Origin: Oscillospiraceae bacterium
GTDB taxonomy: Bacteria; Bacillota; Clostridia; Oscillospirales; Ruminococcaceae
Assembly: GCA_021200565.1 (NCBI GenBank)
Contig: JAJQGJ010000004.1
Span: 1 to 58,746 of the forward strand
Length of the DNA stretch: 58,746 nucleotides
Direction of reading: 5' to 3'
The translations under genes and the position numbers were made by a program. The stretch's first letter is position 1. Each line of letters starts with the position of its first letter. The notes under the pieces are model-generated. The model saw nothing but the letters and a program-made list of their open reading frames with translations. It was not told the DNA's origin and did not search any database. Positions 8,600 through 10,394 of the stretch are shown one piece after another.

Positions 8600-9001
8600 T
8601 CAATTCCACAAAGTAGAATCATCCTTATCACCAGGATACCCGGTACAATAAACGCTTTTACCATTTAACTGGGTATCTGATAGTGCAGACATTCCATAAT
8701 ATCCGGTGCCCATCGAAGAACTTATTGTAATAACTCCATAGTCACCGCCTTTGTCGCCTGAGCTGATCCATGAGGCAGTAGTAGCTAGTTGAACCGCCGT
8801 AGAGCTTCCAAAAGAGGAGCTTGTTCCACCCGGGTATACTGTTACACTTGTTGCGTATCCAAGTACAGTATCATTCTGCCGGTAATAAATTGCGTGTCCA
8901 GCGGTAATTATTGTAGTATCATCAACAAACACTCCTGTTGCATATGTAGTTACACAACTCTCATTGATATTTGCCTCCCGTAAAATTAAATTTCCATCCA
9001 C
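8600..9001 (-). pseudogene. Truncated V8/trypsin-like serine protease
   Basis: 133 codons related to secreted glutamyl-endopeptidase/V8-type proteases. Seen: the catalytic His region TAGHA, a DYGVI segment fitting the catalytic Asp, and GYPGDKDDSTLW, after which the frame stops. The family's GNSG/GDSG segment with the nucleophilic Ser, expected 30-40 residues later, is missing because the signal-peptide gene 7863-8579 begins there. There is also no signal peptide: the frame stays open upstream to 9070 with coding-like sequence, but the only start is GTG at 9001. Both ends therefore look deleted, and the product cannot be an active protease. Confidence 0.7.
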
Positions 9002-9098
9002 CCCGCCCCATCCCGCTAACCCGTACGCTGAAAGCAGGAAGTTTTGGGAGGTGTCTGTGAATTCATAATATCAGAAGGCAAACAATTTGTCAAACTCG

Positions 9099-9128
9099 TA
9101 ACTTTCCGATCGTGCAAGTTGAAAGTTA
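9099..9128. promoter_or_regulatory. Candidate operator upstream of peptide gene
   Basis: TAACTTTC (9099-9106) and GAAAGTTA (9121-9128) form a perfect 8-bp inverted repeat with 14 bases between the arms, so the half-sites are 22 bp apart, about two helical turns. It ends exactly where the -35 hexamer of the peptide promoter begins, the position expected for an activator dimer such as the neighbouring XRE-TPR protein. Confidence 0.65.
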
Positions 9129-9157
9129 TGGACAATAGTTTGATTCGGTGCTAAAAT
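9129..9157 (+). promoter_or_regulatory. Promoter of secreted peptide gene
   Basis: TGGACA (9129-9134), 17 bp, TAAAAT (9152-9157). Both hexamers are imperfect, consistent with a promoter that needs an activator. Confidence 0.65.
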
Positions 9158-9218
9158 ATATATAGCTGAGCCACAGAAAACGGTAATAGCTAAAATTAAA
9201 TTGAAAGAGGTAAGAACA

Positions 9219-9425
9219 ATGAAAAAATCACTATCAGTGCTTTTGGCAATACTCTCAACACTCACTATGGCAATATCAGTTGCTGCAGAAGATACTTCAC
9301 TAGTACCAGAGGAGTCACAAGTTCCCGATGCAAGTATGTCGCATTCGGAAGAAAGTAAAGAAGAGCCAGATTGTAAACCGAATTGTGAAGCAGGGCTTCC
9401 GCTTATCGGTGATGAAGACTACTGA
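9219..9425 (+). CDS. Small secreted peptide, candidate signalling propeptide
   Basis: 68 aa. The ATG at 9219 follows AAAGAGG by eight bases. Residues 1-24 are a clear Sec signal peptide (MKKSLSVLLAILSTLTMAIS, cut near VAA). The remainder is very acidic and Ser/Pro/Glu-rich, with a DCKPNC pair and a C-terminal tail reading CEAGLPLIGDEDY. No known family was recognised. Its 3' end overlaps the 3' end of the convergent XRE-TPR regulator by seven bases, and a palindrome precedes its promoter. This is the gene arrangement of RRNPP-type quorum-sensing pairs, in which the C-terminal piece of an exported propeptide is reimported. That role is inferred. Confidence 0.72.
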   Translation: MKKSLSVLLAILSTLTMAISVAAEDTSLVPEESQVPDASMSHSEESKEEPDCKPNCEAGLPLIGDEDY

Positions 9426-10054
9426 CTTTCAATTTCAACTAACAAACGATTTATACATTCTGTCAGTTCGTCAGCATTCCACACCCTTGACGTGCAAAGC
9501 GAAAGAGCTTCTTCTGCAAGCTTTTTCGCTTCTTTTTTGTCACCATCATCGTTACGATGCGACATAGACCATGCGCAATTATACATGCAGCTCGGAAGTT
9601 TACTTAGATTTGACACATACTCGCAACAAGCAATACCCTCTTTTGCAACTTGAATGCTTTCATCATACTTGCCCATAAGCCCCAGAAACTTTGACAAGCT
9701 GTAGCATATATCAATCAATTTTCTTGAAGAAAAAGTTTTGTCCACTGCATTTGTCTCAATATTGTCTTTTATATGCTCAAGTATTGCTATAGCTGGTTCA
9801 TACTCTTCCAATAAGCCATAATTATACGCAATATCACGCAAAATCTGAGCTTCCATATTGGTCAAAAACTTCGGCAAATTTTCTTCATCGTAGTCCGGAA
9901 TTGTAAGACGCAGCGAGTCTTCGAGGTGATCAAGTTGAGTTATAGCGTCTATTATGCCATCTTCATACAACATTTTTGTGTCTATGACTTCGTAGCGCTG
10001 TTTGTTTTCGGTAGAAAAGCTATCATAATACTTTCCAAGTTCATCAAGCATCAT
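9419..10054 (-). CDS. TPR peptide-sensing half of split XRE regulator
   Basis: 211 codons of helical tetratricopeptide-like repeats, e.g. LLEEYEPAIAILEHI, LMGKYDESIQVAKEGI and KKEAKKLAEEALSLC, as in the C-terminal peptide-binding domain of RRNPP regulators (Rgg, PlcR, NprR, Rap). In-frame sequence upstream of the ATG (NGDKAKAR) reads on smoothly from the HTH part, so this is the second half of one gene (10337 to 9419) interrupted by one extra base in the A4 run at 10079-10082. It may be translated separately from ATGATG at 10054. The gene ends inside the peptide gene on the other strand. Confidence 0.75.
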   Translation of the reverse strand: MMLDELGKYYDSFSTENKQRYEVIDTKMLYEDGIIDAITQLDHLEDSLRLTIPDYDEENLPKFLTNMEAQILRDIAYNYGLLEEYEPAIAILEHIKDNIETNAVDKTFSSRKLIDICYSLSKFLGLMGKYDESIQVAKEGIACCEYVSNLSKLPSCMYNCAWSMSHRNDDGDKKEAKKLAEEALSLCTSRVWNADELTECINRLLVEIESQ

Positions 10055-10076
10055 ACGAGCTTTCGCTTTATCTCCA

Positions 10077-10337
10077 TTAAAATTGATGTGATTTTATATC
10101 ACGAATCTCTTGACGGACAAGATAGTCTTTATCGTTATTAGCTTCCCTAAGATAATCTGCAGACAAACCAAGCCGTTCAAGAAGTCTCGCCAAAATGCTA
10201 GTATTACTATTGAATTTTCCAGACTCGATTCTCGAAAGAGTGGACGCTGTGCATATTCCATTGCATAGCTCTTCTTGTGTTATGTTTTTGTCTTCACGAC
10301 AAGTTTTGATCAGGCTGCCGATTTCAATTTTATCCAT
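10077..10337 (-). CDS. XRE HTH half of split RRNPP-type regulator
   Basis: 86 codons: an XRE-type helix-turn-helix at about residues 8-62 (ITQEELCNGICTASTLSRIESG) and a short linker, ending early at QEIRDIKSHQF. Removing one base from the A4 run at 10079-10082 fuses it to the TPR domain and gives a protein of about 305 aa, the usual size of Rgg/PlcR-like regulators. The break could be a sequencing error, a true inactivating mutation or phase variation. AGGAGG precedes the ATG; the promoter is at 10366-10394. The likely target is the palindrome at 9099-9128. Confidence 0.8.
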   Translation of the reverse strand: MDKIEIGSLIKTCREDKNITQEELCNGICTASTLSRIESGKFNSNTSILARLLERLGLSADYLREANNDKDYLVRQEIRDIKSHQF

Positions 10338-10365
10338 AGTAAACCCTCCTCACTCCGTTTTCTCC

Positions 10366-10394
10366 ATTATATCACATCCAAATATAGCCTGCAA
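10366..10394 (-). promoter_or_regulatory. Promoter of XRE-TPR regulator
   Basis: Leftward TTGCAG (10389-10394), 17 bp, TATAAT (10366-10371). It sits directly after the terminator of the queH unit. Confidence 0.75.

Follow-up and report, generated by a model that had tools for sequence, protein, structure and literature searches.

A convergent propeptide and XRE-TPR receptor gene pair in an Oscillospiraceae bacterium as a probable copy of a recurrent RRNPP-type signalling module

The locus described here lies in a stretch of 58,746 nucleotides from an Oscillospiraceae bacterium (the window; contig JAJQGJ010000004.1) and probably belongs to a family of peptide signalling modules of RRNPP type, of which it is a single copy and which is present in one Oscillospiraceae genus and its relatives; in these modules a secreted propeptide would act back on its own gene through a convergently encoded receptor. 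The first-pass annotation had proposed an RRNPP-type system from the window sequence, and this stood in part. An RNPP_C domain, a match to PlcR, the recurrence of the convergent pair, selection on the peptide and co-variation between peptide tail and TPR domain all agree with it, but the window itself has a split receptor and no more than a remnant of the effector gene.

The propeptide gene occupies positions 9219–9425 of the forward strand (ORF call; 68 codons plus stop). As annotated, it encodes 68 residues that begin with a signal sequence of Sec type. It has a ribosome site, and its product further comprises an acidic linker, an EPDCKPNCEAG motif and a variable tail. The signal part, residues 1–23 (9219–9287, +), was delimited by sequence and by the hydropathy rule used to score signal sequences in all peptides; it has a Lys-rich start, a hydrophobic core and Ala-Ala at residues 22–23, and is kept in orthologues. 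The tail, LPLIGDEDY (9396–9422, +), is the most variable coding part besides the linker and is presumed to be the source of the mature signal; the annotation had given it correctly as CEAGLPLIGDEDY. As had been noted, the peptide gene overlaps the regulator on the opposite strand tail to tail; the overlap is 7 bases, and homologues of it were found at the same position in 38 other loci.

The regulator had been read as a single XRE+TPR protein. Both domains are present, but they are carried by two minus-strand ORFs in different frames. The N-terminal half (10077–10337, −; 86 aa) contains the XRE-type HTH expected of transcription-factor members of RRNPP (HTH_3, 40.8 bits), and its dN/dS against orthologues was 0.05–0.14. 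The C-terminal half (9419–10054, −; 211 aa; dN/dS 0.08–0.20) contains a TPR domain of the peptide-binding type, with RNPP_C at 28.0 bits against a cut-off of 26.5. Of 26 receptors, 18 gave an RNPP_C match at E ≤ 0.001; the closest orthologue scored 24.2 bits, under the cut-off of 26.5. Three orthologues from the same genus have a continuous receptor; over the TPR half their identity is 78, 73 and 69%.

Receptors of this kind recur, and most are accompanied by a plausible peptide gene. A receptor profile (A1), built from 26 sequences, gave 43 matches in the genus, two of them from the split window receptor, and these came from 19 of the 31 genus genomes. In a family sample of 396 genomes at least 15 had a match (4 of the 15 belonging to the genus), and in a class sample of 391 at least 5, among them the own genome; these last two counts are lower bounds, since no more than five candidates were scored in each genome. 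A signal-peptide-like ORF, convergent and at −60 to +200 bp, was found at 41 of 62 receptor ORFs. When an ATG and a ribosome site were also demanded, 37 of the 62 homologous receptors still had such an ORF; among 416 control genes (other genes of the same stretches) scored by that rule, 2 did. Three of the 41 convergent ORFs looked doubtful or spurious (L117, L119, L133), and the peptide of L116, missed by the rule, was recovered by the peptide profile. This leaves a plausible convergent peptide at 39 of 62 receptors (38 by rule, plus L116) and no convincing one at 23. The annotation had staked its proposal against homologous regulators mostly lacking a neighbouring signal-peptide ORF, which is not what was found. 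Module peptides were 50–82 aa long with a Sec-type signal, and the 31 genomes yielded 20 peptide-profile matches of at least 58 bits, all adjoining receptors, 16 of them the profile's own rows. Weaker matches across all 31 genomes (E ≤ 0.01) were left unused, as they reflected mostly general signal-sequence likeness.

The near relatives among the module loci (nine loci) were Oscillospiraceae MAGs, with which the annotated label 'gut clostridium' agrees. Origin from a phage or a plasmid was rejected because no close kin appeared among the matches: of five phage matches, four showed 26–27% identity over 80–84% of the query and one 50% over 18%, and of 12 plasmid matches the eight listed showed 24.5–27.8%. 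Five close paralogous receptors belonging to one clade (L112, L120, L121, L123 and L130) lacked a convergent peptide, and L122, L129 and L131, of the same clade, possessed one; the peptide-less receptors are possible eavesdroppers. At L126, a divergent operon approximately 1.1–2.7 kb upstream of the peptide encodes a radical-SAM-like protein beside a 76-aa Cys-rich ORF, which by eye looks like a RiPP cluster.

Among four orthologous peptides the coding frame, on whose conservation the annotation had also made its proposal depend, is conserved and under purifying selection (dN/dS 0.15–0.32 overall). The Cys motif showed dN of 0 to 0.10, and the nine-residue tail, with few sites, dN/dS of 0.36–0.71. 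The suggestion that peptide tails co-vary with the TPR domain was borne out, with a contribution from shared descent. Among 23 genus loci, tail distance followed TPR-C distance once HTH and signal were removed (partial r = 0.56, a value reached in 0 of 999 permutations). For the control, which set the signal sequence against TPR-C with HTH removed, the figure was 0.04 (321 of 999). The tail also tracked the HTH once TPR-C was accounted for (partial r = 0.37, 0 of 999), which counts against an exclusive relationship. Over all 37 loci the values were 0.46 for tail against TPR-C, 0.25 for the signal control (0 of 999) and 0.29 for tail against HTH. Shared descent therefore explains part of the co-variation, given that the tail tracks the HTH as well and that the 37-locus control was itself elevated. 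The test excluded the window, owing to its split receptor, and L117, L119 and L133; L116 was absent.

Comparison of individual pairs of loci pointed to the same region. L108 and L109 were 95–99% identical in the first 300 receptor bases and 91–99% identical from the peptide signal region through promoter and leader, but only 47–57% identical at the receptor end and peptide tail; in the lowest segment identity fell to 55%, compared with 90% outside it (z = −12.5, where 100 shuffles went no lower than −4.1). In another genus, L149 and L155 were 79 and 84% identical at the receptor end and tail and mostly 95–100% identical elsewhere in the module, and L154 and L155 showed a similar dip. Identity between L110 and L111 was uniform across receptor and peptide. 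As the genes lie tail to tail, the peptide tail and the ligand-binding end of the receptor adjoin, and from these sequence comparisons it appears that the two are exchanged, or diversify, jointly as a specificity cassette.

The control region was aligned for 18 peptide-bearing loci. In the window, a promoter-like site for the peptide gene, TGGACA-17-TAAAAT (9129–9157, +), was identified by promoter scan and keeps its position in orthologues; the divergent promoter-like site, TTGACA-17-TATTAT (9065–9093, −; first hexamer at 9093), matches at 11 of 12 positions, and its −35 is conserved over the 18 aligned loci. The scan was rejected as evidence in its own right (9 sites found, 8.6 expected), and the sites are therefore credible only through their conservation. 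A palindrome had been reported directly before the peptide promoter, and TAACTTTC-14-GAAAGTTA is indeed present at 9099–9128, but its right arm is not conserved in orthologues and its symmetry is not beyond that of shuffled sequence, the best dyad of the region being matched or beaten in 14 of 200 shuffles; the 8+8 palindrome was accordingly rejected as the operator. Between the divergent promoters there is instead an operator-like element, AACTTTCCGATCGTGCAAGTT (9100–9120, no strand assigned), which is conserved in four orthologous loci and doubled in tandem in L105. With no significant palindrome, the argument for this element is one of conservation and not of symmetry.

Across the aligned genus loci, the divergent TTGACA and the peptide −35-like site flank a short element specific to each group: AACTTTCCGATCGTGCAAGTT in the window group, and CGTTGCGTGGGACGCAACG, TTGTGAGTAATACTCACAA, ATTTGCATGATATGCAAAT and others elsewhere. 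When 17 loci were tested for palindromes, eight elements were equalled in 0 of 200 shuffles, two in 3 and 5, and four in 12–20 (the window in 14); those of L107, L129 and L131 were not above chance. The window-type element, with at most one mismatch, occurred at 15 sites in 10 of the 31 genomes, at module promoters, with one control match. Of these sites, five belong to peptide promoters within the window group and the other ten to receptor promoters of other groups. Paralogous receptor promoters bearing the element were observed at G000:C17:227142-227162 and in L108, L109, L111, L113, L114, L115, L124 and L128. Matches at G001:C6 and G027:C7 (L192, L194) fell inside a conserved membrane-protein gene and were dismissed as chance. 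Several genomes with window-type sites had no match to the window-group receptor, so that either autoregulation or cross-regulation is possible at the receptor promoters; judged from these positions, the element may mediate autoregulation there, or cross-talk between channels. In L110, L111, L114 and L115 an element of the ATTTGCAT type (one mismatch) reappears ahead of a second leader unit, at a distance of about 3 kb, as expected of a true operator.

The divergent transcript carries a conserved leader of about 65 nt, probably structured, between its −10-like site and its ribosome site (8991–9062, −, in the window, where parts of the basal pairing are lost). The gene behind it in the window is the remnant of a trypsin-like protease (8600–9001, −; Trypsin_2, E = 3.1e-4, 21.9 bits, under the cut-off of 27.6), whose open frame extends back into the leader and has no signal sequence, the domain part lying at approximately 8618–8941. 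At other loci the secreted products encoded downstream of the leader were mostly proteases or Cys-rich proteins: C39/C70-like cysteine proteases in L105, L106 and L107 (L106 just under the C39_2 cut-off), M23 peptidases in L118 and L129, and small Cys-rich proteins in L108, L113, L110, L114 and L115. In L108 the Cys-rich protein is followed by a gene for an FtsX-type permease, and by eye L109, L113 and L124 have large membrane proteins resembling it; a large membrane protein lies directly downstream in L122 and L128. The distal leader unit of L111 had no such ORF. Frames that look broken beside intact peptide genes were observed in the divergent genes of L105, L107 and L109 (by eye), and in the window at 8600–9001 and 10077–10054; they might be a trace of signal cheating or of decay.

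That the leader acts as RNA is the favoured reading of the conserved stretch; that it is instead a DNA element, such as a site for a further regulator, is unlikely. RNAalifold predicted 14 pairs, 4 with changes on both sides. In a MAFFT alignment, 91.8% of cells at 15 named pairs could pair, against 86.9% in shuffled alignments (0 of 500 as high) and 35–50% when the alignment was slid; the covariation score exceeded all 500 shuffles, and 5 of the 15 pairs changed on both sides, against a shuffled mean of 2.9 (32 of 500 as high). These results, and the placement of the stretch between −10-like site and ribosome site, argue for a structured RNA. A DNA element would be consistent with the small number and relatedness of the leader rows and with a hand-made alignment of 16 rows, in which the paired fraction exceeded that of shuffled alignments (0 of 2000), whereas extra pair types (790 of 2000 as high) and changes on both sides (658 of 2000) stayed within the shuffled range. 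From these alignments the fold is probable rather than proven. A covariance model of the leader gave at least 18 matches (E ≤ 0.01) in 11 of 31 genus genomes, none of them farther than about 3.5 kb from a receptor; the model's own rows account for 13 of the 18, and as at most 150 candidates were scored per genome, absences are soft. Rfam produced one match on the window stretch, far under the gathering score and taken as chance, and none on the leader-bearing L008, L011 and L016. In the 16-row alignment the terminal loop is GTAC, GCGC or GCAC, self-complementary in many rows, and could allow two copies to pair.

Two further alternatives concern the state of the window receptor and the role of the peptide. 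A self-activating loop, as the annotation had supposed, is doubtful in the window genome, given the split receptor and the remnant state of the divergent target gene; for the same reasons the window copy is probably decaying or receptor-dead, and both judgements hold unless the split is an assembly error. Purifying selection is still seen on both receptor halves (dN/dS 0.05–0.20, dS partly saturated), which indicates either a recent split or an artefact of assembly. This, and the continuous receptor of the three orthologues, would suit a receptor intact in the living organism, with the frame change a consensus or assembly error and the module working here save for its effector. Such an error is a real possibility, yet the less probable account, since decay is also visible elsewhere in the copy, in the effector remnant and the lost basal pairs of the leader. 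It is a good deal less probable that the peptide is not a signal at all, but a secreted effector (antimicrobial or protease-related, for instance) that the regulator merely controls. RRNPP signals are typically short and linear, and the conserved Cys pair, the acidic mature part of 45 residues and the long linker are unlike them. A controlled effector would not account well for a tail that co-varies with TPR-C, for the mosaic cassette of L108 and L109, or for the strongest peptide-profile matches adjoining receptors in 20 of 20 cases (16 being the profile's own rows); moreover, 16 module peptides had no family match in NCBIfam.

For the peptide as a signal, the following loop is proposed; its processing, import, receptor binding and regulation, including the direction of regulation, we infer. 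The propeptide would be exported by Sec and trimmed, and a short C-terminal piece would be re-imported by an oligopeptide permease; import is possible in the own genome, which encodes two oligopeptide-binding-type proteins (SBP_bac_5). The re-imported peptide would bind the TPR region of the XRE-TPR receptor, which would act at the operator between the two divergent promoters. On one side this would control the peptide gene, as feedback, and on the other the secreted effector gene, whose mRNA would start with the conserved leader. The tail-to-tail layout would let peptide tail and ligand-binding end change together.

More tentatively, the family may be a new RRNPP subfamily in which a single genome runs several parallel, insulated channels, each with its own tail, TPR end and operator, with an exchangeable ligand/receptor cassette and with a private structured leader RNA as a post-transcriptional layer. 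If the family is real, it would show how private channels multiply inside a single genome, and how one recombination step could alter the specificity of ligand and receptor together, by virtue of the two ends lying side by side. The leader is a new candidate for an RNA element that belongs to a single regulatory module. Where a receptor or effector gene is broken and the neighbouring peptide gene intact, gut communities would offer a test of signal cheating or eavesdropping.

Among known systems, PlcR-PapR shares the XRE HTH and TPR receptor. Of 49 solved sequences matched, only PlcR (2qfc, 3u3w, 4fsc) spans the whole receptor profile (positions 1–301, E = 3.6e-10); PrgX, Rgg-like and ComR entries match its N-terminal part. 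The PapR propeptide is exported by Sec, and secreted hydrolases are among the PlcR targets. Whereas papR lies downstream of plcR on the same strand, peptide and receptor are here convergent and overlapping; the operator-like element is also unlike the PlcR box, and the divergent transcript has a conserved leader RNA.

The annotation had rightly stated that convergent receptor/peptide pairs exist among Rgg groups: in Rgg/SHP group III, the peptide gene overlaps the receptor gene end and is transcribed convergently (PMC13361665), as in the present module. No Rgg model was found among NCBIfam matches of the TPR half up to E = 1, however, and SHPs are described, in PMC10075063, as short and exported by PptAB, not Sec, in contrast to the module peptides of 50–82 aa with a Sec-type signal. 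In RopB/LCP, an RRNPP receptor controls an adjacent secreted cysteine protease, SpeB (PMC10518010), which is paralleled by the C39/C70-like proteases of L105, L106 and L107; LCPs are leaderless, of 8–10 aa and divergent from the receptor, whereas the peptides here are leader-bearing and convergent.

Among the published papers listed, none dealt with peptide signalling in these bacteria and none with RRNPP together with leader RNA. The signature of RRNPP_detector comprises a TPR receptor of 250–500 aa and a Sec propeptide of 10–100 aa, −60 to 400 bp apart (PMC10075063), and its candidate subfamilies are among the closest comparisons. The window propeptide fits it in size (68 aa), spacing (7-base overlap) and Sec signal (by hydropathy rule only); the window receptor is split (86 + 211 aa), but the orthologues, with continuous open frames of 325–369 aa, match the signature. 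The main text of that paper names neither Ruminococc- nor Oscillospir- taxa. The best reading of the sequences is that the modules form a new RRNPP subfamily, with PlcR as its nearest solved relative and a convergent layout.
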